Positions 7,975-39,438 of a DNA stretch of 39,438 nucleotides are shown here, piece after piece (the first letter of the stretch is position 1; each line of letters starts with the position of its first letter). Position numbers and translations under genes: made by a program. Under the pieces are notes generated by a model. The model was not told the DNA's origin. It made no database searches and worked only from the letters and a program-made list of their open reading frames with translations. The DNA is from Alphaproteobacteria bacterium (GTDB lineage: Bacteria > Pseudomonadota > Alphaproteobacteria > Caulobacterales > Hyphomonadaceae), in NCBI GenBank assembly GCA_016125405.1, contig WGLW01000027.1, positions 1-39,438 on the forward strand, read 5' to 3'.

Positions 7975-9459
7975 TCACCGCCTCTGGACATAATCAAAGA
8001 GACACATGAAGCCGAAATCCATGTGCAGTTGCTGGTGGCAGTGGAACAGCGTGCGGCCAGGATTGTCTGCTATGAAGTCGATCTCGGCGCGCTGATAGCC
8101 GCCGAGCATCACGACATCCTTCAAAAGTCCAGCGGTCGGTTGCCCGGCGATGCGGGTCAGCTCGAAGCTGTGCCGGTGCAGATGGATCGGGTGGATGTCA
8201 TCGCTTGAATTGGCCATGCGCAGCCGATAGCGCCGTCCCTCCTGCAACTTGAACATTGGCGCCATGTGTTGGTCATCAAAAGCGACGCCGTTGATGGTCC
8301 AGCGGTTGAAGCCGCTTTGCGCCGCGTTGTCCTTGGCGAAGGTCATGTCGAAGACTTCATCAGGCTCCGGCGCTAGAACGCCGGTTCTGGCGAACCGGCG
8401 ATAATCCCATTTTGCCGGTGACGGCTTCTCCCACTGCGGCTCGCCGGTTGAGCCTGCGTATTCGACCACAACGCCCATCCCGTTGTTCCGGTCATCATCG
8501 AACGTGTCGCCAAGTATCCAGACGCCCGGATGCGTCATCTCAACAATGGCCGAGACCCTCTCTGCCGTCCCAAGCCATAGTGTCGGGACTATCGCTGGTT
8601 TCGGGACGGGATTGCCGTCCATCGCCACAACCTGAAATGCATGTCCGGGCAGAGCGAGACTTCGGATTTCGCCAGCGCTGCCATTCAGGACATGAAAGAG
8701 CACGCGCTCGCCTGCCTTGACCCGAATGGGCTCCCCGGCCCCAAGTTTGCGGCCGTTGATTGTGAAATGCTCATAGCCGACTTCGTAGCCCTTCGGCATG
8801 CCCCGCTTCAGCGAAGCATCCATTGCGCTTTCCCCCGCCGCCTTCAGCGCGGGATCCTCAATTCCCGCCAGAAAATCCATGGCCATGTCACCGCCCTGAT
8901 TAAGGCTCGGTCCAAACTCCTTGAGGACAAGGAAGACTTCGCGGTCATAGGCGCCAGGCTCCCGCGCCGGCTCGATATAAACCCCGCCAACCTGGCCGCC
9001 GTACTGACCCGCTGACACATCAGGTCCGGCCGTGACGTGGGTGTGGTAGAAGCGGAAACCGGACGGCCCTGGAGTAAATGCGACCCGTCGTGATCCGCGA
9101 GCGGCAATAAAGGGCGTTCCTTCCTCCTTCGAACCATCCACATCCACCGGCACCTTTTGACCATGCCAGTGAAGCTGTTCAGGGCGATCCGTATCGTTGT
9201 GGATATCGATGACGGCTTTGTGCCCTTCTTGCAGACGTAGAAGCGGGCCGGGAAACTGGCCGTTGTAAGTCGTGGTCGCAATTTCAACGCCCGGCGCGAT
9301 CTCGATTTTTGTGTCGGCAATCTTGATCGCATAGTCCGCGGGCTCGGTTGGCGCTGCCGCTGGCTCAGTCGAGCGTCGCGCACAAGCGCTCAGGGGCGTC
9401 ACGCCCCCGAGCATCGCTGCGCCCCCGGTCTGGATAAGACGTCTGCGATTAACGGCCAT
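7975..9459 (-). CDS. Tat-exported multicopper oxidase
   Basis: 494 residues, preceded by a GAGGT ribosome site. The N-terminus NRRRLIQTGGAAMLGG is a twin-arginine signal, and LSAC soon after looks like a lipobox, so it may be a Tat-dependent lipoprotein. All four copper motifs are present: HWHG (~98), FYHTH (~140), HPIHLHRHSF and HCHQQLHMDFGFM near the end, giving the type 1, 2 and 3 sites with a Met axial-ligand candidate. Three-domain laccase-type enzymes like this oxidise phenols, bilirubin, manganese or cuprous ions; the substrate cannot be told. There is no obvious Met-rich CueO-like insert. It lies tail-to-tail with the barrel gene, 110 bases apart, and is transcribed alone. Confidence 0.9.
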   Translation of the reverse strand: MAVNRRRLIQTGGAAMLGGVTPLSACARRSTEPAAAPTEPADYAIKIADTKIEIAPGVEIATTTYNGQFPGPLLRLQEGHKAVIDIHNDTDRPEQLHWHGQKVPVDVDGSKEEGTPFIAARGSRRVAFTPGPSGFRFYHTHVTAGPDVSAGQYGGQVGGVYIEPAREPGAYDREVFLVLKEFGPSLNQGGDMAMDFLAGIEDPALKAAGESAMDASLKRGMPKGYEVGYEHFTINGRKLGAGEPIRVKAGERVLFHVLNGSAGEIRSLALPGHAFQVVAMDGNPVPKPAIVPTLWLGTAERVSAIVEMTHPGVWILGDTFDDDRNNGMGVVVEYAGSTGEPQWEKPSPAKWDYRRFARTGVLAPEPDEVFDMTFAKDNAAQSGFNRWTINGVAFDDQHMAPMFKLQEGRRYRLRMANSSDDIHPIHLHRHSFELTRIAGQPTAGLLKDVVMLGGYQRAEIDFIADNPGRTLFHCHQQLHMDFGFMCLFDYVQRR

Positions 9460-11509: not shown

Positions 11510-12088
11510 ATGAAGCTGTTGATCGTCGATCCGGACCCCGCTCGCGCCACCCTTGTTGCAGAGGGCCTGGCCGACGTGCGCCCGCTCGAAATCCGCCAGA
11601 CAGCCAGATTGGAAGAGGAAGAGCTGGCGAGCTTCCAGCCATCGATCATCGTGATTGCGTGCGACAGCCCCGACCGCGACACGTTGGAGAGCCTTCGCGA
11701 CGCCACCAGCGCCAACCCGCGCCCCGTCGTCATGTTTGTCGACCGATCAGCGCCCGGTCTCGGTGAAGCCGCCACCCGCGCCGGCGTCGCAGCCTATATC
11801 GTCGATGGCCTTCAGCCCGCTCGGGTCCGCTCAATCCTCGAAGTGGCGATGACGCGCTTCCAGCTGATGCAGCAGCTACGCACCGACCTCGCCAAGGCCC
11901 AGTCGGACCTCGCTGGCCGCAAGACAGTCGAACGGGCCAAGGGTTTGTTGATGAAGGAACGTCAGCTGACAGAGGAAGAAGCCTATTCCCAGCTTCGACG
12001 ACTGGCGATGAATTCCGGCCGTTCGATCGCAGCCGTGGCTGCAGACCTGTTGATATTCTCGGGCGTGCTGAAGGGAGACAAGTCATGA
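11510..12088 (+). CDS. nasT: NasT-type ANTAR response regulator/antiterminator
   Basis: 192 residues from the ATG at 11510 (MKLLIVDPDPARA). Residues 1-120 form a CheY-like receiver (LLIVDPD, IIVIACDSPDRDTLE). Residues ~130-190 form the ANTAR RNA-binding domain (RKTVERAKGLLMKERQLTEEEAYSQLRR and AVAADLL). Known NasT proteins bind hairpins in nitrate-gene leaders and prevent termination; the sensor NasS holds NasT inactive without nitrate. Here nasS overlaps it by ATGA, giving the same order as in Paracoccus. Two candidate RNA targets are visible in this window, upstream of the porin and of the transporter. Start choice is moderate: only a weak ribosome site is present. Confidence 0.93.
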   Translation: MKLLIVDPDPARATLVAEGLADVRPLEIRQTARLEEEELASFQPSIIVIACDSPDRDTLESLRDATSANPRPVVMFVDRSAPGLGEAATRAGVAAYIVDGLQPARVRSILEVAMTRFQLMQQLRTDLAKAQSDLAGRKTVERAKGLLMKERQLTEEEAYSQLRRLAMNSGRSIAAVAADLLIFSGVLKGDKS

Positions 12089-13269
12089 CCCTGGCGCTCG
12101 AACTCGGCTTCATCGCCCTTGCTGATGCGGCGCCGCTGATCGTCGCGAAGGCGCGAGGGTATTTTGGCGAAGAGGGGCTCGATGTCGCCCTGCATCGCGA
12201 GGTCTCATGGGCCACGATACGCGACAAGGTCGCAGCCGGCGTGTTCCAGGGCGCTCACATGCTGGCGCCCATGGCGCTGGCGGCGAACATGGGCGTGGGT
12301 TCGGAACCGACGCCCTTGATTGTCCCGATGGCGCTCAACGCCCATGGGGCCTCGCTGGGAATTTCCCGCGCACTGGCGGCAGAGATGGAGAGGTTCCTTC
12401 CAGAAGCGCCTCTGGATGTGGCTGCACTGGCGGCGGTAGTCGCCGCCCGAGCCGCCAGCGGACGACCGGCTGTGAGTTTTGCGACCGTCTTCCCTTATTC
12501 GATGCACGCCTACATGCTTCGGTACTGGGCCGCCTCCGGAGGCGTCGATCCGGATCGCGACATCCGTATCGTCGTAGCGGCGCCGACAGCGATCGCCGCG
12601 AGGCTGAAGTCGGGCGAAATCGACGGATTTTGCGTTGGCGCGCCATGGGGCGCAATGTGTGAAGCCGATAGCGCCGCCCGAATTGCACTGAGGGCTGCAA
12701 CCTTCTGGCCTGGCGGACCTGACAAAGTGCTCGGTCTGTCGCAGTCATGGGCCGACGCCGATCCTGCCGCGACCATGGCTTTGGTCCGGGCGTTGATCCG
12801 TGCGGCCGTCTGGGCCGATGCGCCGGAGAACGCGGCGGAGCTCGCGAAGCTGCTGTCGCGGCGCGAATGGCTGGATGCACCGGCGACGTTGATCGGTCGC
12901 GCGCTCGCTTCAGGTCCAGATCAGATCCGGTTCGCCCGTCACGCTGCACTCTATCCCTGGCGCAGTCACGCCGCCTGGATTCTGAGTCAACAAATGCGCT
13001 GGGGCCAGATAGGAGCAGGCATTGACGCCTCTACCGCGCTGGCCTGCTATCGGCCAGATGTCTTCCGCGCGGCCTGCCTTGACGCCGGGATCAACGCCCC
13101 CAGCACCGACAGCAAGATCGAAGGCGCGCATGACCGGCCATGGAATCAGCCCGGCCTTCGTGGATCGATTCCAATGACCGCAGACTTGATCCTTGGCGGC
13201 GGAGCGTTCGACCCCGAAAGACTTCACGAATACGCCGCCGGCTTTGCCATTAGCCGTCTCGGTTCATGA
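12085..13269 (+). CDS. nasS: NasS-type cytoplasmic nitrate sensor (NrtA-like binding protein)
   Basis: 394 residues. Resembles periplasmic nitrate-binding proteins of the NrtA/CmpA family (LELGFIALADAAPLIVAKARGYFGEEGLDVALHRE-type start, FATVFPYSMHAYMLRYW, GEIDGFCVGAPWGAMC, DADPAATMALVRAL, but no transmembrane partner genes). It has no signal peptide, and starts within the nasT stop (ATGA). A cytoplasmic binding protein coupled to an ANTAR regulator is the hallmark of NasS: it binds nitrate or nitrite and releases NasT. It is followed by a 222-base structured leader before the transporter. Confidence 0.9.
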   Translation: MTLALELGFIALADAAPLIVAKARGYFGEEGLDVALHREVSWATIRDKVAAGVFQGAHMLAPMALAANMGVGSEPTPLIVPMALNAHGASLGISRALAAEMERFLPEAPLDVAALAAVVAARAASGRPAVSFATVFPYSMHAYMLRYWAASGGVDPDRDIRIVVAAPTAIAARLKSGEIDGFCVGAPWGAMCEADSAARIALRAATFWPGGPDKVLGLSQSWADADPAATMALVRALIRAAVWADAPENAAELAKLLSRREWLDAPATLIGRALASGPDQIRFARHAALYPWRSHAAWILSQQMRWGQIGAGIDASTALACYRPDVFRAACLDAGINAPSTDSKIEGAHDRPWNQPGLRGSIPMTADLILGGGAFDPERLHEYAAGFAISRLGS

Positions 13270-17164: not shown

Positions 17165-17508
17165 CCATCGAGACAATCAACCGGCTCTGGATCGAGGTGT
17201 GCGCCGTCACGGACATCCCGACACGCGGAGCACGTCGCATCAGCGGCACGAAACGCCCCATCGCCATTTTCAGAAATGGCGCCGATGAAGTTTTCGCGCT
17301 GGTCGATCTTTGCCCGCACAAGCGCGGCCCGCTCAGCATGGGTATCGTGCACGACCGTAGCGTCACGTGCCCGCTTCACGGCCAGCGCATCGACCTTGTC
17401 ACAGGCGAGTTGATGGGCGCCGACGCCGGCAAGGGGTGCGCGCCAAGCGTGGAGACGCACATCGAGAATGGCCGAGTGTTCATTCCGGCGGATGCGTTTT
17501 GCGCTTGA
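17161..17508 (+). CDS. nirD: Nitrite reductase [NAD(P)H] small subunit with intact Rieske ligands
   Basis: 115 residues starting within the nirB stop (ATGA). A Rieske fold with CPHKRGPLS and CPLHGQRIDLVTGE: both C-x-H and C-x2-H are retained, so a [2Fe-2S] cluster should be bound. Enterobacterial NirD proteins have lost these ligands; this copy belongs to the cluster-bearing subtype. It partners NirB in nitrite reduction to ammonium and may relay electrons. Its stop and the nasA start overlap (TGATG). Confidence 0.95.
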   Translation: MTIETINRLWIEVCAVTDIPTRGARRISGTKRPIAIFRNGADEVFALVDLCPHKRGPLSMGIVHDRSVTCPLHGQRIDLVTGELMGADAGKGCAPSVETHIENGRVFIPADAFCA

Positions 17509-20159
17509 TGACCGAGACACGCACAACATGCCCATACTGCGGCGTCGGTTGCGGATTGCTTGGTTCGACGAACGGGGCGCGCGAGATAGCCGTTAGGTCC
17601 GATGCAAACCATCCTGCAAATCAGGGACGCGTCTGCTCAAAGGGCGCTGCGCTGGGCCAAACGGTGGGTCTCGATGGGCGCTTGTTGAGGCCGACAGTGC
17701 ATGGCCGGATGGTCAGTTGGGACCGCGCACTCGACACCGTCGCACGCGGCTTTAAGCGCACCATCGATCGCCACGGACCGGATTCGGTTGCCTTCTACGT
17801 CTCGGGCCAGTTGCTCACAGAGGACTACTACGCGGCCAACAAGCTGATGAAAGGCTTCATTGGCTCGGGCAATATCGACACAAATTCGCGGCTGTGCATG
17901 GCTGCGGCAGTGGTTGCACACACGCAGGCGTTTGGCGGCGATTATGTGCCCGGCTGCTACGAAGACCTCGATATTGCCGACCTCGTCGTCATGTCCGGCC
18001 ACAACGCAGCATGGACGCACCCGGTCCTTTATCGGCGCATGGAGTCCGCCCGCGCTCGCGGCCAGCGTCATGTTGTCATCGACCCCCGACGCACCGACAC
18101 AGCTGACGCCGCCGACCTGCACCTCCCCATTTCACCGCAAAGCGATGTGCGTCTCTGGAACGGTTTGCTGGCCGACCTCATTCGTACCGGCGCCATTGAT
18201 CACGGCTATGTCGCGGCGCATGTCTCCGGCTTCGAGAAAACAGTCGCCGCCCTTGGCGATGCGGACCAGTCACCCGCCGCAATCGCGGCCGATTGCGGCA
18301 TCGAAGAGGCCCTCCTTCAGCGATTTTACGCAATGTTCGCCGCCACTGCGCGAACGGTGTCGCTTTTCTCGATGGGCGCCAACCAGTCCGCCCAGGGCGT
18401 GGCCAAGGGCCTCGCCATTCTCAATGCCCATCTTGCGACCGGCCGCATTGGCAAACCAGGCGCCTGCCCGTTCTCGATTACCGGCCAGCCCAACGCCATG
18501 GGCGGACGCGAAGCCGGCGGGATGGCCAACACGCTGGCGGCGCACATGGGGTTTGATCCGGATTCGATTGATCGCGTTGGCCGCTTCTGGTCGACGCCGA
18601 ATGTCGCGCGCAAGCCCGGCCTCAAAGCCATCGACATGTTCGAGGCGATACACGACGGCCGCATCAAGGCCGTCTGGATCATGGCGACGAACCCCGCCGT
18701 CAGCCTCCCCAATTCGACACGGGTGCGCGAGGCCCTGGCCAGATGCCCGCTGGTGGTCGTCTCCGACTGCATGGCCGGGACCGACACCATGGCCTTCGCG
18801 CACGTGAAGTTGCCGGCGCTGGCCTGGGGCGAGAAGGACGGTACGGTCACGAATTCCGAGCGCTGTATCTCGCGCCAGCGCTCCTTCATGCCGGCTCCAG
18901 GCCGCGCGCGCGCAGACTGGCGCATCATCGCAGACATCGCTCGACGCATGGGTCATGGCGACGCTTTCAATTGGCGCGGACCGGCCGATATCTTCCGCGA
19001 GTACGCACGTCTTACGGCCTACGAAAACAGCGACCGCTTGCTCGATCTGTCTTCTCTCATCGCCCTGTCAGATGAAGAGTACGATGAACTGGAGCCGGTG
19101 CAGTGGCCGCTCAGGCGGCGTGAGGGGCAGAAGCGCCTGTTCGTTGACGGTTGTTTCCCCACGGCAGACGGCCGTGCGCGTATGATCGCTGTTCACCCGC
19201 GCGGCCCCGCCGAGCCGTTGACGCCACGCTACCCTTTCGCTCTCAACACCGGCCGCATTCGCGACCAATGGCATACCATGACCCGAACGGCTCTGGCCCC
19301 TGCACTCTGCCGCCATGCGCCTGAACCCTATGTCGAGATACACCCGCAGGACGCCGCCAGCGTCGGCGTCGTCGATGGTCGTCTTGCCTGCATCGAGACG
19401 GCGCGCGGACAGGCCATCGTCGTCGCGCAACTCAGCGATCGCCAGCAGCGCGGCGCACTCTTCATGCCGATGCACTGGTCGGACGCGCTCGCTCCTTCCG
19501 GCCGCGCCAACGCCGCGACCAGCGGATCTATTGACCCAGCTTCCGGCCAGCCGGAATTCAAGCATACGCCGGCGCGCATCTATGGCTATCGCGAAACATG
19601 GACCGGCTTCTGCATTTCCCGAGATGCGCTGACGCCGCCAAAGAACGCCGCCATCGTCTGGCGACGCATTCCACAACCTCACGCCCACCTCCACGAATTC
19701 GCCGGTCGGGGCGATGATGCTGAGCGCGACCTCGTGCACCGGGTCGTCTCCCGCGGCGCAATCGGCGAGTGTCTTCGTTACGAGGATCCGGGAACGTCCA
19801 GCCTGCGCGAGGCCTATATTGATGGCGGACGGCTGCAACGCGTGATTTTCCGAGGCCCTCGCCTGCCGCCCCGCGAATGGCTCGTTGCTGCGTTCGCCGA
19901 GGAAGCAATTTCAGACACGGTACGCCGCTGGGTTCTCCACGGCCGCGCGCCGGACGTCGTGCAGGATACGAGTCACCTGGTCTGCGCGTGCGCCGCCGTC
20001 ACAGCGCGCGCAATTGGCGCCGCCATTAGCGATGGCGCTTGCGACATTGAATCCATCGGACGGACCACAAGCGCCGGCATGACATGCGGGTCCTGCCGTC
20101 CCCAGATCCACCGCCTCCTCGCCGAGGCGCTTGCAGAGGACAAGCGAAATGCTGCGTGA
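17508..20159 (+). CDS. nasA: Assimilatory nitrate reductase catalytic subunit (Mo-bis-MGD)
   Basis: 883 residues from ATG 17508, chosen because the N-terminal cluster motif follows at once (TCPYCGVGC, then RVCSKG), ligating a [4Fe-4S]. A longer frame from 17367 runs inside nirD and is not used. Molybdopterin-oxidoreductase motifs: NTNSRLCMAAA-like region (Cys at the Mo site), SMGANQSAQGVAKGLAILNAHLATG, FSITGQPNAMGGREAGGMAN, NTGRIRDQWHTMTRT. The C-terminus (~825-875) has a BFD-like [2Fe-2S] domain (CACAAVTARAIG, CGSCRPQIHRL), the form that receives electrons without a dedicated diaphorase. Reduces nitrate to nitrite in the cytoplasm. No Tat signal, so not the periplasmic NapA type. Confidence 0.96.
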   Translation: MTETRTTCPYCGVGCGLLGSTNGAREIAVRSDANHPANQGRVCSKGAALGQTVGLDGRLLRPTVHGRMVSWDRALDTVARGFKRTIDRHGPDSVAFYVSGQLLTEDYYAANKLMKGFIGSGNIDTNSRLCMAAAVVAHTQAFGGDYVPGCYEDLDIADLVVMSGHNAAWTHPVLYRRMESARARGQRHVVIDPRRTDTADAADLHLPISPQSDVRLWNGLLADLIRTGAIDHGYVAAHVSGFEKTVAALGDADQSPAAIAADCGIEEALLQRFYAMFAATARTVSLFSMGANQSAQGVAKGLAILNAHLATGRIGKPGACPFSITGQPNAMGGREAGGMANTLAAHMGFDPDSIDRVGRFWSTPNVARKPGLKAIDMFEAIHDGRIKAVWIMATNPAVSLPNSTRVREALARCPLVVVSDCMAGTDTMAFAHVKLPALAWGEKDGTVTNSERCISRQRSFMPAPGRARADWRIIADIARRMGHGDAFNWRGPADIFREYARLTAYENSDRLLDLSSLIALSDEEYDELEPVQWPLRRREGQKRLFVDGCFPTADGRARMIAVHPRGPAEPLTPRYPFALNTGRIRDQWHTMTRTALAPALCRHAPEPYVEIHPQDAASVGVVDGRLACIETARGQAIVVAQLSDRQQRGALFMPMHWSDALAPSGRANAATSGSIDPASGQPEFKHTPARIYGYRETWTGFCISRDALTPPKNAAIVWRRIPQPHAHLHEFAGRGDDAERDLVHRVVSRGAIGECLRYEDPGTSSLREAYIDGGRLQRVIFRGPRLPPREWLVAAFAEEAISDTVRRWVLHGRAPDVVQDTSHLVCACAAVTARAIGAAISDGACDIESIGRTTSAGMTCGSCRPQIHRLLAEALAEDKRNAA

Positions 20160-23685: not shown

Positions 23686-25986
23686 TCAGGCGGCCTGATC
23701 TGTTGCACGAGGCGATTTCCAACGCATCAGGAAAGCTTGTGCGACGAACCATGCGAAAGCGAAAACGCCCACTGCGAACACCAGGTCGCCGGGCACGCGG
23801 GCCCATACGAGCGCCTGCATCACCGGACCATGGATGACCTCGGCGCTGCGGGCGTACGCATAATCGTGCGTGAAGCTGGCGTAGGTCTGCCAGAGGCCTT
23901 GGGGAAGCAGCGACAGGAATACCATCATCGCCAGTCCGATATTCAGGCACCAGAAGCTGACCGCCAGGAGGCGATTGTTCCATTTCGCAGGATCGGTGAG
24001 GCCTCGCATGCAGAACAACGTCAAGCCCAGGCCAAGCATTCCATAGACGCCAAAGAGGGCGGCGTGGCCATGCGTGGGGGTCGTGTTCAGACCCTGCATG
24101 TAATAGAGCGCCAGCGGCGGGTTGATGAGAAAACCGAACATGCCCGCGCCAATCAGGTTCCAGACCAGCACTGAACCGAAGAACATGAAGGGCCAGCGGT
24201 AGGCTTTCTGCCAGTCGAACAGACCTTCGTGCCTGGCGCGGCTGTAGGCCTCAAAACCAACGACAACGAGCGGCACGACCTCCAGCGCCGAGAACACGCT
24301 GCCAAGCGCGATGACGGCGATCGGAGTCCCGCTGAAGTAGAGGTGGTGGAAAGTGCCCAGAACGCCGCCGCCGAGGAAGATGATCGTTGCAACCAGGACG
24401 GACGTTGTCGCCACCGAAACCCGCACCAATCCCATTCGCACGAACAAGGCTGAGACGATCGCGGTGGCGAACACCTCGAACACCCCCTCGACCCACAAGT
24501 GGACGACCCACCAGCGCCAGTATTCCATGATCGAGATATTGGTGTGCTGACCGTAGAGCAGGCCCGCCCCGAACAGGAGGCCGATCGAAACCGTAGCGAA
24601 GATCACCAGGTAAACGAGCGACTTGCTCTGCACCTGTTTCAGGCTCGGCCACAGGCCGCGCAGCACCAGCACGACCCAAAGCAGCAGGCCGACGAAAAGG
24701 TAGATCTGCCAGAACCGGCCAAGATCGACGTACTCATAGCCTTGATGGCCGAACCAGAAGTTGGTGGTGAGATTGGCGAACAGACGGTTGATCGCTGACC
24801 ACTCGCCCACGAATGAACCGACGACAATCACGACCAGGCTCACCAGAAGAAACCAGACGCCTGCGGACTGAAACCTCGGCTCCCTGCCGCCAAGCAACGG
24901 CGCGACGTAAAGGCCGGTGGCGAGCCACGCGGTGGCGATCCAGAAGACAGCAAGCTGCGTGTGCCAGGTTCGCGTGACCGAGTACGGGAACAGGTTGGAC
25001 AGCGGCAGGCCGTAAATGCCTTGCCCCTCGACCGCATAGTGCGCTGTGACAATTCCGAGCAGAACCTGCACAACGAACAGGGCGGCGACCACAATGAAGA
25101 ACCAGCCGGTCGCCCTCATCGAGGGCGTGATGGTCGCCTGATCCATGAAGTCGGCGGTCGCGAAGCCCTTTTCGGGTTCTGCGTCCTTACGCCAGACATC
25201 AAATTCCTTCGCATAGTACCAGACGAGACCACCGATGGCGCCGAGAAGGACGAAGATCGAAATGAACGTCCACATGAAGATTGCGCCGGTCGGGGAATTG
25301 CCGACCAGCGGCTCGTAAGGCCAGTTGCTTGTGTAGGTGAACGTCTTGCCCGGCCGGTTGGTCGTGGCCGCCCACGCGGTCCAGAAGTAGAATGCATCGA
25401 CCGCGCTGGCCTCATCCGGCGAAAGCTTTGCCTCGACCGGGAAAGCATACTGGACACGCAGAGCCTGCGCTTGCGGCGAACCGTCCGCCAGCAGGTCAGA
25501 ATAATGCGCGCCGACTTCCCTGATCGCGCGCCCTCGTTCCGCGCTTACGGTAATGACGCCAGTCCGCGGATCGTAGGTGTTGGTGCGCATTTCCTCACGC
25601 AACACCGCCTGCAATCGGGCCTGATCCGGCGCGGACAGCTGCGCATAGGCCCCGCCGGCGGTTTCGGAAGCCAGAATGTTCAGCAACGACAGGGCTTCCC
25701 GGTGCAACCAGTCGGCGCTCCAGTCCGGGGCGACATAGCTGCCGTGACCCCAGATCGAGCCTTGCTCCATTCCGCCCATTGATTGCCAGACGTTCTGCCC
25801 GCGCTCGATCTGCTCGCGCGTAAAGATGACCTCGCCGGAAGCTGTCTGCACCGACGTCGGAATGGGTGGGGCGGTCTGATAAATCTGTCGGCCGTAAAAC
25901 AGAAGCGCGCCAAACATGACGAGCATGCCGACACCGAAGATGATCCAAAGCCGGCGAACCGAGAAATGCGAGCTGTAGTGAGCCAT
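23686..25986 (-). CDS. norB: Quinol-dependent nitric oxide reductase (single-subunit qNor)
   Basis: 766 residues from ATG 25986. N-terminal helix and a periplasmic cytochrome-c-like region lacking a CXXCH haem site, as in qNor, then about twelve helices of the haem-copper oxidase superfamily. Ligand histidines seen: WHTQLAVFW, WWVVHLWVEGVFEVFATA, GTFHHLYFSG (FeB pair), TPTHGHAALFGVYG. The Glu in VEGVFE is the catalytic-site type found in NO reductases. Reduces 2 NO to N2O with quinol as donor. With no separate norC nearby and with nsrR adjacent, the likely task is detoxification and not full denitrification. Orientation is opposite to the GntR unit. Confidence 0.95.
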   Translation of the reverse strand: MAHYSSHFSVRRLWIIFGVGMLVMFGALLFYGRQIYQTAPPIPTSVQTASGEVIFTREQIERGQNVWQSMGGMEQGSIWGHGSYVAPDWSADWLHREALSLLNILASETAGGAYAQLSAPDQARLQAVLREEMRTNTYDPRTGVITVSAERGRAIREVGAHYSDLLADGSPQAQALRVQYAFPVEAKLSPDEASAVDAFYFWTAWAATTNRPGKTFTYTSNWPYEPLVGNSPTGAIFMWTFISIFVLLGAIGGLVWYYAKEFDVWRKDAEPEKGFATADFMDQATITPSMRATGWFFIVVAALFVVQVLLGIVTAHYAVEGQGIYGLPLSNLFPYSVTRTWHTQLAVFWIATAWLATGLYVAPLLGGREPRFQSAGVWFLLVSLVVIVVGSFVGEWSAINRLFANLTTNFWFGHQGYEYVDLGRFWQIYLFVGLLLWVVLVLRGLWPSLKQVQSKSLVYLVIFATVSIGLLFGAGLLYGQHTNISIMEYWRWWVVHLWVEGVFEVFATAIVSALFVRMGLVRVSVATTSVLVATIIFLGGGVLGTFHHLYFSGTPIAVIALGSVFSALEVVPLVVVGFEAYSRARHEGLFDWQKAYRWPFMFFGSVLVWNLIGAGMFGFLINPPLALYYMQGLNTTPTHGHAALFGVYGMLGLGLTLFCMRGLTDPAKWNNRLLAVSFWCLNIGLAMMVFLSLLPQGLWQTYASFTHDYAYARSAEVIHGPVMQALVWARVPGDLVFAVGVFAFAWFVAQAFLMRWKSPRATDQAA

Positions 25987-26332
25987 GTGCACGGCCCCCC
26001 GTATCGTGTCGGATCGCGCCGATCTTGCAGCCCGAACAGACGGCTGCATTCTTCCCGTTGGCGCGGGCTAGATCACGAATTGGCGCGGCGTCCGTATCTC
26101 AATCAACGCGACTCATGGAGAAAAGAGTGAACCCTTATCAATGGGTAAGCAAGCATCGCCATTGGGCCATATCGAGCCGCCTTCGTCCGCCGACCGAACC
26201 GGCAGACACTCGCCCAAGCCTGGCGCTCCACCCCGCAGGCGCGCCTCCCATTTTTTTGGTCACTGTAAGCACCCGGGCGACTATTCCGTTCGAACAATCG
26301 CATCTCGCTTGACTCCGGCCAGTCAGAGTGTC
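25987..26332. other. Divergent promoter region between norB and the GntR operon
   Basis: About 346 bases without a gene. No full FNR/Nnr box was found; the minus strand has TTGAT at 26105-26101 with a poor second half. No convincing NsrR palindrome is visible, so norB control by NsrR is not supported by this stretch alone. A -35-like TTGACT lies at 26309-26314. Confidence 0.5.
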
Positions 26333-36810: not shown

Positions 36811-37545
36811 CTAGATCGACATGATGGGCGTGAAGCGCCCGGCGTATTCGAGACTCTCGTTTAGCAACGCATCATCCGCCTGAAGCCAACAGTGGGCGCC
36901 GAAAGGGTCGGCCTGAACGGCGAAAATGCAGGCCGGAAAATGGCCGCGAGACGCGAGGTAGTTCAAAAGCGCCACCGCCTCAAAAAGACAGAGGTAGGCT
37001 CGCGGATATAACGGGCGAAGTTTGCGGAATATCGCGGTTTCGCGTTTCAGGCCTTCGCAATTTTGAACTGCGCAGCCAGCCTGCAGCCTCGTCCCAACCC
37101 TTGCGCGTCGTTCCCTCAAATGGTGGACGAGTTCGCACATGGACCAACGCCTTAGCCAGCTTGAGGCCCGGCGACAGGCCAGGAAGAACGCGAACAGCTC
37201 CCGAAAACGGATGCGAACCCCGGTCCCGGCGTCCCTCACCTCCCCGAAAAGTCGACCCGCATTCGGACCAAGAACATGGCTCTCCGGACGCGCGATATCG
37301 CGGAAGGCGTCGAGAGCCCTTCCGCGCTCGCTGAAGACCAGAAGTCCAGCCTCGACCAGTTCGTCGTGATGGTCTGAAAGACGCACCGAGATGCAGCTTG
37401 CCCGGTTGTCGTTGACGGTGAGGTCGCGCCCTTGCCCGCGAAGGCGCACAGCGGAATACGCATCGCTCTTCAGATCCAGAAAAATGCCGTACCCTTCGCT
37501 CACGCAGAAGAAGACATCCTCCGCAAGCCGCGGGGTTGCCCTCAT
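36811..37545 (-). CDS. Orphan lasso-peptide B-type maturation protease
   Basis: 244 residues from ATG 37545 (MRATPRLAEDVFFCV); the open frame reaches 37854 but that part overlaps a plus-strand gene and lacks homology. Residues 1-80 resemble the PqqD/RRE recognition domain (FFCVSEGYGIFLDLKSDAYSAV). Residues ~150-244 are the transglutaminase-like protease: Cys in YLCLFEAVALLNYLASRG and His in DPFGAHCWLQ; the usual third catalytic Asp may be the Asp in ADDALLNE. Fused B proteins cleave the leader of lasso precursors. No lasso cyclase (asparagine-synthetase-like) or convincing precursor is present in this window. Confidence 0.75.
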   Translation of the reverse strand: MRATPRLAEDVFFCVSEGYGIFLDLKSDAYSAVRLRGQGRDLTVNDNRASCISVRLSDHHDELVEAGLLVFSERGRALDAFRDIARPESHVLGPNAGRLFGEVRDAGTGVRIRFRELFAFFLACRRASSWLRRWSMCELVHHLRERRARVGTRLQAGCAVQNCEGLKRETAIFRKLRPLYPRAYLCLFEAVALLNYLASRGHFPACIFAVQADPFGAHCWLQADDALLNESLEYAGRFTPIMSI

Positions 37546-37764
37546 TCTGACGCCCCAAAGCATGCAGACGACAGCGGGCATGATGGATGGGGATGCGGTT
37601 TCAACGACATTGCGCTCGACCCTTTCGGGGATCGAGACATCTAGCAGGTCGCTTCGAACGGCTCGTCCCCGTTTCGAGGAAGAGAGGGAGAGAGCGGACA
37701 TATGTAGCAACTGCACCAAGGTAGCTGGCTGACGGACGGGCAAGCCGGGGCCATCTTCAATTCG

Positions 37765-38097
37765 ATGGGCGACGCCCTTGCAGTTGAGGCTCTGTTGAAG
37801 AGGCGGGCCAAACTGGCGAAGCAGGTCCAAGGCCTGCAGTCCGCCATCTTCCACATAGACGCTTGTCTCGCCCTACTGCGGTACAAGCCCGACGCCCGCG
37901 TGGAGAGACGCTTTGCCAATGGCGAGCTGATCGCGCTGGTGGGAGAGGCTGTGCGGGCCGGCAACCACACGCCCACGGCCATTGTCCGCTACACCACTGC
38001 GGCAAGTGGCTTGGACCCTAACGACCGAAAACTGGCGGCGCGTCTGATGTTCAGCATGAAGGACTGCCTGAAGCGGCGGAACGCCAATGGCGCTTAA
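37765..38097 (+). CDS. Small protein with coiled coil and probable HTH
   Basis: 110 residues from ATG 37765. The first half is a predicted amphipathic helix (LLKRRAKLAKQVQGLQSAIFHIDACLALL). The second half (RRFANGELIALVGEAVRAG, TPTAIVRYTTAASGLDP, DRKLAARLMFSMKDCLKRR) looks like a winged helix. Similar two-part small proteins are common in alphaproteobacterial accessory regions, without known function. Divergent to the lasso-B-like gene, 219 bases apart. Confidence 0.7.
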   Translation: MGDALAVEALLKRRAKLAKQVQGLQSAIFHIDACLALLRYKPDARVERRFANGELIALVGEAVRAGNHTPTAIVRYTTAASGLDPNDRKLAARLMFSMKDCLKRRNANGA

Positions 38098-38151
38098 GTC
38101 ACAGCCTTTTCGATGCAGAATTCTGTAGCGAAACGATCATAAATGTCGTAA

Positions 38152-38166
38152 GAACAAAAAAAGAAC
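38152..38166. promoter_or_regulatory. LexA (SOS) box and -10 ahead of the DprA-like gene
   Basis: GAAC, seven A, GAAC: the complement of GTTC-N7-GTTC, the alphaproteobacterial LexA operator. A -10-like TATATT (38169-38174) follows 2 bases later, so LexA bound here would block the promoter. The surrounding region is A/T-richer than neighbours. One such match is expected by chance in about 39 kb, but its placement against a -10 favours a real site. Confidence 0.6.
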
Positions 38167-38297
38167 CCTATATTATGGACCTGATTCGAGGAACATTTTG
38201 AAGCATCGGTTGATGCGTTGCGACCAATCACGCCCTGTTCGCGTTAACGACTATGGGCGATGGTCTCACACGACGAGTCGGGCTGGGGACAGATCGG

Positions 38298-39206
38298 ATG
38301 GCATTAGCGCTGATGCATGACGGCTTGGCAGTAGAGGCCATCTCGCCATTGCGAGAATTGGGGGCTTATGAAGCCCTTTGGCTGGACCCGAAAAGCTCTT
38401 TCAAAACGATCGCAGAAAGGTTTGCTAGGAACGTCTCGGCGCTTCCGTCGGACTTCGTCTCGCGGTCGGAAGCGGACTCGTGCGCACATCAGGTGCTGGC
38501 CAAATTGAAAGCTGCCGGCGTGCATCGCTTCGGCGTTCGCATCAATCACGCTGGCGATTATCCGATGAAACTGCGCGACGCTGAACACCCCATCGAGCTT
38601 TTGTATTTCCAAGGCGAATGGGAGCTAACCGAGTCTCGATGCGTCGCGGTCGTTGGAAGCCGCAAGGCGTCAGATGATGGAAAAAGGCGTGCTCGCCGGA
38701 TTGCGCGTGCGCTTGTCGGGGAAACGGCGAAAACTGGCAGCCTTGGCTTTACGGTCGTCAGTGGGTTGGCCGAGGGTATCGACCGTGCGGCACACGAAGC
38801 TGCACTTGAAGCTGGCGGCCGAACCATAGCCGTAATCGGCACGCCGCTCGGTTCTTACTACCCCAAGGAAAACCGGGAACTTCAAGACCGCATTGCCAAC
38901 GACTTCCTACTAATTTCGCAAGTGCCCGTTCTGCGATATGAAACGCAGGATTGGCGGATCAATCGTGGATTCTTTCCCGAACGCAATCGCACAATGAGCG
39001 CGCTGACCGAGGCGACAATCATCGTCGAAGCGGAAGCGACTTCTGGAACGCTGACGCAGGCCCGGGCAGCAGTCCATCAAAAGCGCAAACTGTTCATTCT
39101 GGACTCGTGCTTTGCGCGTAAAGATATTGACTGGTCAGCGAAGTATGAAGCGCAGGGAGCCATTCGCGTTCGTTCGATGAACGATGTTTGGGACAATCTT
39201 GATTGA
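38298..39206 (+). CDS. DprA/SMF-like Rossmann protein of a probable defence pair
   Basis: 302 residues from ATG 38298 (GGGGA eight bases ahead); an in-frame ATG at 38253 has no ribosome site. N-terminal ~100 residues are a helical domain (SPLRELGAYEALW, FKTIAERFARN). The rest is the SMF fold: VAVVGSRKASDDGKRRAR, GFTVVSGLAEGIDRAAHEAAL, GRTIAVIGTPLGSYYPKEN, RNRTMSALTEATIIVEA. DprA proper loads RecA on single-stranded DNA in transformation and carries a C-terminal winged helix; this protein ends right after the Rossmann part. It overlaps the next gene by 23 bases and lies behind a LexA-like box, pointing to a nucleic-acid or nucleotide-sensing defence role (inference). Confidence 0.85.
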   Translation: MALALMHDGLAVEAISPLRELGAYEALWLDPKSSFKTIAERFARNVSALPSDFVSRSEADSCAHQVLAKLKAAGVHRFGVRINHAGDYPMKLRDAEHPIELLYFQGEWELTESRCVAVVGSRKASDDGKRRARRIARALVGETAKTGSLGFTVVSGLAEGIDRAAHEAALEAGGRTIAVIGTPLGSYYPKENRELQDRIANDFLLISQVPVLRYETQDWRINRGFFPERNRTMSALTEATIIVEAEATSGTLTQARAAVHQKRKLFILDSCFARKDIDWSAKYEAQGAIRVRSMNDVWDNLD

Positions 39207-39438
39207 AGACATCAAGCGCCAACTGACTCAGCTCGACCACCCGTTGATGGGGGAGGATCATCCCAAAATTCTGGCGACTGACGAGATATATTTCTGGCGA
39301 GAATATACGAGCGGCAAAGATTACACGTTCAGCTCGACTAACAATCTCATCTCAAATTTGAAAAAGCCGCCGACGCGACCGCCGGCGCAATTGCGGCATA
39401 AGCGGCGAGTGATAGCCGAGTGCGCCGACCTTCTTTCA
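39184..39438 (+). CDS. Partner of the DprA-like protein (N-terminal part, cut by window)
   Basis: 85 codons open to the window edge, from ATG 39184, which overlaps the DprA-like gene end. Sequence features: LIEDIKRQLTQLDHPLM, TDEIYFWREYTSG, SSTNNLISNLKKPP, RHKRRVIAECADLL. From memory, proteins starting like this follow stand-alone DprA-like genes and carry a phosphoribosyltransferase (ComF-like) domain further on; the decisive region lies beyond the edge. Probable second component of a two-gene system. Identity of the domain is not proven here. Confidence 0.6.
   Translation, partial: MFGTILIEDIKRQLTQLDHPLMGEDHPKILATDEIYFWREYTSGKDYTFSSTNNLISNLKKPPTRPPAQLRHKRRVIAECADLLS

Follow-up and report, generated by a model that had tools for sequence, protein, structure and literature searches.

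A candidate LexA operator precedes a ShosTA toxin-antitoxin pair in an alphaproteobacterial genome and recurs before its relatives

Introduction

The ShosTA system joins a DprA-like antitoxin, ShosA, to a toxin, ShosT, and published work on it is summarized in a review (PMC12593503). There, ShosT is described as a phosphoribosyltransferase (PRTase) and pyrophosphatase that disturbs purine metabolism, leading to DNA duplications, filamentation and death; ShosA is said to bind DNA and, probably, to promote homologous recombination, and T7 Gp0.7 is given as a trigger. Protection against T7 and lambda by a DprA-PRTase pair has also been reported (PMC9122126). A study of AbpAB also deals with ShosTA, and LexA, where it appears in the sections available, concerns AbpAB (PMC10732053). 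The literature searched, outside which subscription papers largely fell, including the primary study of Pu et al. 2025, held no report of LexA or SOS control of ShosTA.

Toxin modules that are LexA-controlled and tied to the SOS response are described for TisB/IstR of E. coli and higBA of Caulobacter (PMC9040746, PMC13384398), but their proteins are unrelated to those considered here and they are not DprA/PRTase pairs. For Caulobacter, the LexA motif has been published as GTTC-N7-GTTC (PMC12700426). PsyrTA and the long-type ShosTA (PDLC03012/PDLC02997) are likewise DprA-like/PRTase pairs, but with a longer toxin and with weaker profile matches to the locus described here.

This locus lies at the end of the window, by which we mean the whole stretch of 39,438 nucleotides that was analysed. 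Judged by its sequence matches, the pair is ShosTA, a known phage-defence toxin-antitoxin system and not a new one. The two window proteins match both ShosTA profiles, and the gene order, DprA-like and then PRTase, overlapping or adjacent, is that of E. coli. It differs in its LexA-type operator upstream, which the two E. coli copies read do not have, and in its toxin gene, of which only a part is on the contig.

Results

The window is the entire contig C44 of a draft genome of 3.86 Mb in 56 contigs, and position 39438 is a real contig end. A DNA search of the whole genome found no second copy of 38152-39438, which gives no support to a repeat at this end. An earlier note on this DNA had proposed a two-gene defence candidate here, in which a DprA-like ORF overlaps a downstream gene; the overlap is present, and the defence assignment was borne out at the level of the family, since the profiles name the pair ShosA and ShosT. 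On the forward strand, the 317-residue shosA ORF (38253-39206) is followed by shosT, which opens at 39184 inside the 3' end of shosA and of which an 85-codon 5' part (39184-39438, forward strand) precedes the cut made by the contig end.

The best defence model for the first ORF was PADLOC ShosA (PDLC03961, E 1.3e-94), which aligned residues 35-316 to profile positions 17-293 of 303; PsyrA and the other PADLOC ShosA model gave far weaker matches. An alternative start at 38298 is a better fit to the homologs in an alignment with three of the loci surveyed (L010-L012). The ORF also matched Pfam DNA_processg_A (E 6.5e-55), and its seven PDB sequence matches include 9vzo, a solved structure named ShosA. 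Like DprA/Smf of natural transformation, it has a Rossmann-fold DprA domain with the DprA motifs GSR and SGLAxGIDxxAH. Unlike DprA/Smf, it is paired with a PRTase and falls below the equivalog cut-off of NCBIfam dprA (TIGR00732; 155.5 vs 191.15 bits), and the same genome encodes a separate housekeeping-type DprA (C23:118394-119062).

The 85-codon ORF matched PADLOC ShosT (PDLC03962) over residues 31-81 (E 1.6e-7) and is 50% identical to the intact Asticcacaulis ShosT over residues 5-71 of the latter. The second half of shosT was not found in the assembly with either the ShosT profile or the intact protein as query. With the profile, six matches other than the window piece were obtained in the assembly, two of which were read and are presumably ComF-like and APRT-like proteins; the intact protein gave one (E 0.52). 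The PRTase catalytic motif falls outside the part of shosT on the contig and was not found elsewhere in the assembly; with this core off the contig, a PRTase domain in the window partner would follow from its family. The full-length partners aligned from other loci have about 200-225 residues and carry the PRPP motif DD(V/M)xTxG together with a conserved FVP(I/V)P segment. PADLOC called ShosT in all six short partners tested (L011, L045, L054, L060, L063, L064), a Pfam PRTase domain was detected in one of five partners tested and there below the Pfam cut-off (E 0.0012), and comparison of the ShosT profile with solved structures gave weak matches (best E 0.052), 16 of 18 rows being PRTases or a PyrR. 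The motif, the ComF-like and APRT-like profile matches and these weak structure matches suggest a kinship of ShosT with PRTases. The resemblance to PRTase-carrying partners that the earlier note had seen in the start of the downstream gene is thus upheld by the ShosT match of the window piece and by the PRPP motif of its intact relatives. A predicted fold of the Asticcacaulis ShosT alone was discarded (mean pLDDT 32.3).

In 21 of the 28 ShosA loci examined, the window excluded, an uninterrupted ShosT match lies downstream. The shosT of L010 and L012 contains in-frame stops, L061 has only the first part and L055 a remnant; no ShosT match was found downstream in L067 and L068, and in L018 the partner is another, PRTase-like protein. 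The loci L010, L012, L055 and L061, in which ShosA is open beside a broken or missing shosT, have the appearance of toxin decay with the antitoxin kept. One of them, in Mesorhizobium atlanticum (L010:7207-8124), is followed about 1.3 kb downstream by an ORF that we take, by reading, to be nifH, which would place this ShosA in or near nitrogen-fixation genes.

Upstream of shosA, the LexA-type site that had been noticed at the -10 is indeed present as GAAC-N7-GAAC at 38152-38166 (GAACAAAAAAAGAAC; GTTC-N7-GTTC on the other strand), two bases before the candidate -10 TATATT (38169-38174, forward strand) given by simple consensus scoring. The paired -35, TCGTAA at 38146-38151, is poor, and the promoter hexamers found in the window are at best moderately good. 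The bare pattern occurs at 101 places in the genome, against 67 for a reversed-pattern control, and is on its own weak evidence. A matrix was made from the seven core bases of five SOS-gene sites, with the shosA site excluded from training; surroundings were examined for 20 of the 101 places, picked for T-rich cores or at will. The five training sites are tied to genes whose products were named by profile as ImuA, RmuC, YifB (ComM), RecN and RuvA. The yifB/comM site stands 76 bases 5' of the ORF and the recN site 19 bases. The imuA and rmuC sites fall inside the longest possible ORF, in its first 25 codons, but upstream of the profile-matched part, so that the real starts are presumably later. 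The ruvA site precedes an open frame that we take, by reading alone, to be ruvC.

By this matrix, the shosA operator ranks first among 100 listed places (101 in the genome), ahead of the five training sites and two further places (L071, L072), after which the score drops from 5.55 to 1.74. The genome has one lexA match (C7:196472, E 3.4e-51), and just upstream of it stands GAACGCATGTAGAAC, again GAAC-N7-GAAC. This site scores low, outside the 14 best, which indicates that a matrix with only five training sites misses some real ones. The two further places, L071:1500 (G000:C4:59549) and L072:1501 (C47:50170), are T-rich GTTC-N7-GTTC sites with scores like those of the SOS-gene sites. The adjoining ORFs tested had no named product at L071, and at L072 comprise a radical-SAM ORF and one unnamed; the ORFs beside both sites are possible new SOS genes.

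The site was found at most 260 bases upstream of the start of the ShosA match in 17 of the 24 alphaproteobacterial ShosA loci whose upstream DNA could be read, namely in the window, L010, L011, L012, L018, L045, L046, L047, L049, L050, L051, L054, L063, L066, L069, L096 and L097. It was absent in the other seven (L048, L052, L053, L055, L056, L058, L061). L019 and L057 were omitted as they lie at contig edges, and L065 and L098 are duplicates of L064 and L066, respectively. Several of the loci are close relatives (L045/L046 and L063/L069/L096/L097), so the counts are not of independent loci. A shuffle test was run on 21 alphaproteobacterial loci, to which the count of 24 adds L058 (without the site), L096 and L097. 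In 300 shuffles of the upstream DNA, the site appeared before a mean of 0.23 loci and a maximum of 2, against 15 observed, and in the same 21 loci it occurred 15 times in 5,460 promoter bases vs 5 times in 103,907 others. Within 700 bases upstream of housekeeping-type dprA, it was present in none of 24 cases. Across all 29 loci of the survey, the site was found in 17, two of which are from Enterobacter (L062, L067) and are not counted as having LexA sites, and the reversed-pattern control was found in two (L063, L069). The conservation of the pair, on which the earlier note had staked its proposal at the level of sequence, was thus found in the survey together with a recurrent operator before the class relatives judged.

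In several loci the site falls within the spacer between -35 and -10, as in TTGATG-17-TATAAG (L063) and TTGACG-17-TATGCT (L066), and the best promoter hexamers of other site-bearing loci are poor. In a tree built from the ShosA parts, seven loci of the window's group (support 0.97) carry GAAC..GAAC and five carry no site; other groups have the GTTC..GTTC orientation, and the deeper nodes are weakly supported.

Outside the class, the ShosA of Burkholderia phage Mana is preceded by a different LexA motif, CTGT-N8-ACAG (CTGTATGCATAAACAG), 54 bases before the match. A search for strict LexA motifs found none before ShosA of the E. coli loci L064 and L099, of Pseudomonas phage Riah, of Leptolyngbya and of L070. 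On two Enterobacter plasmids (L062:2432, L067:2365), GTTC-N7-GTTC stands before ShosA and differs from the LexA motif of Enterobacter. Site-bearing copies are plasmid-borne in Rhizobium, Sinorhizobium, Sphingobium and NT-25. A long-type DprA-PRTase pair lies convergent to the short ShosTA in Rhizobium leguminosarum p3 (L063/L094), NT-25 (L069/L095) and Sinorhizobium alkalisoli (L096), with an annotated serine protease 5' of the long-type pair in p3 and S. alkalisoli and a patatin in NT-25. No T-rich LexA-type site was seen before these three long-type pairs in the stretches read.

ShosA of the window's kind is rare: with the window's own genome counted each time, it was present in 8 of the 398 genomes searched in the order and in 8 of the 385 in the class. 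At the level of the phylum it was found in 2 of 349 genomes, with one new locus (L070). Searches in the orders of two other genomes were positive in 1 of 10 and 1 of 82 genomes and gave no new locus, and no relative came up when viral contigs were scanned by pattern. In a collection of E. coli genomes, 687 of 5426 match the E. coli shosTA DNA, and no more than 41 contain 80% or more of it; many of the matches listed cover the shosT end only, beside an IS30 transposase.

Discussion

We find the operator convincing, as it ranks first by the matrix, as lexA has a site of its own, and as the site recurs before 17 of the 24 class relatives. The alphaproteobacterial ShosTA operon, with shosA first, is therefore in our assessment quite probably repressed by LexA and derepressed in the SOS response. 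From the pattern of these upstream sequences, SOS control is likely for many alphaproteobacterial ShosTA. From the review of published ShosTA work (PMC12593503) and from the operator, we infer an SOS-derepressed, nucleotide-disturbing abortive mechanism. Phage replication or DNA damage would produce single-stranded DNA, RecA would be activated and LexA cleaved, and with LexA lost, shosA and then shosT would be made, probably coupled through their overlap. ShosT, a putative PRTase of ComF-like look, would unbalance the purine and nucleotide pool and cause damage to cellular DNA, and the DNA-binding, DprA-like ShosA would restrain it until infection shifts the balance, giving abortive defence. 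An operon with the antitoxin first and under SOS control may leave the pair armed in damaged or infected cells, with ShosA resupplied when ShosT itself causes damage.

It could be argued that GAAC-N7-GAAC is a chance match and that the operon is constitutive or under another regulator, as the bare pattern is common in the genome (101 vs 67 for the control) and the site is absent from seven of the 24 class relatives and from the two E. coli copies read. We regard this as improbable, given a site that heads the matrix ranking of the 100 listed places, stands before 17 of 24 loci where shuffling gives 0.23 in 21 and housekeeping-type dprA none in 24, and in several loci sits in or beside the -35/-10 region. 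A second alternative accepts the site but has the pair serve mobile elements, as a module for addiction or exclusion that SOS control would link to the entry of DNA or to prophage induction and not to host defence. The site-bearing plasmid copies of Rhizobium, Sinorhizobium, Sphingobium and NT-25 and the phage copy of Mana are consistent with such a role, which nevertheless appears rather unlikely: the window copy has chromosomal-type genes as neighbours, among them an ORF that we take by reading to be folD-like, and no tRNA genes were found within the window. Phage defence has moreover been reported for such a pair (PMC9122126).

ShosA might also act mainly as an SOS-induced DNA-repair or recombination factor, with a toxin that is decayed or dispensable. 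Its DprA fold and motifs, the promotion of homologous recombination ascribed to it in the review (PMC12593503), the broken or missing shosT of four loci and the cut-off shosT of the window would fit such a factor. Its best match, however, is ShosA and not dprA, whose cut-off it fails; a separate housekeeping-type DprA is encoded at C23; and shosT is matched without interruption in 21 of 28 ShosA loci, so that we give this reading little credence.

A broader form of the LexA-controlled ShosTA reading, to which we hold only tentatively, would place ShosTA permanently in the SOS regulon of Alphaproteobacteria, with LexA keeping it silent and the DNA-damage alarm arming it. The opposite site orientations across ShosA tree groups, together with the other LexA motif in the Burkholderia phage, would point to repeated selection of this control. 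If true, the system would call for two signals: SOS derepression, by which the proteins are produced, and a phage signal that frees ShosT. With a LexA operator in front of many copies, the DNA damage and repair chemistry reported for ShosTA (PMC12593503) would also be tied to the host's alarm, which raises the question of whether SOS arms an anti-phage toxin or resupplies its antitoxin. Work on E. coli ShosTA may miss this layer of control, the two E. coli copies read being without a LexA motif.

On its promoter side, ShosTA in the window is adjoined by an ORF with a Transglut_core3 / lasso-peptide-biosynthesis B2 domain (36811-37854, reverse strand). Further away, the window encodes a multicopper oxidase (7975-9459, reverse strand), an NMT1-like binding protein (12085-13269, forward strand), a molybdopterin oxidoreductase (17367-20159, forward strand) and a NorB-type nitric oxide reductase (23686-26049, reverse strand), and these four ORFs suggest nitrate or nitric oxide metabolism.
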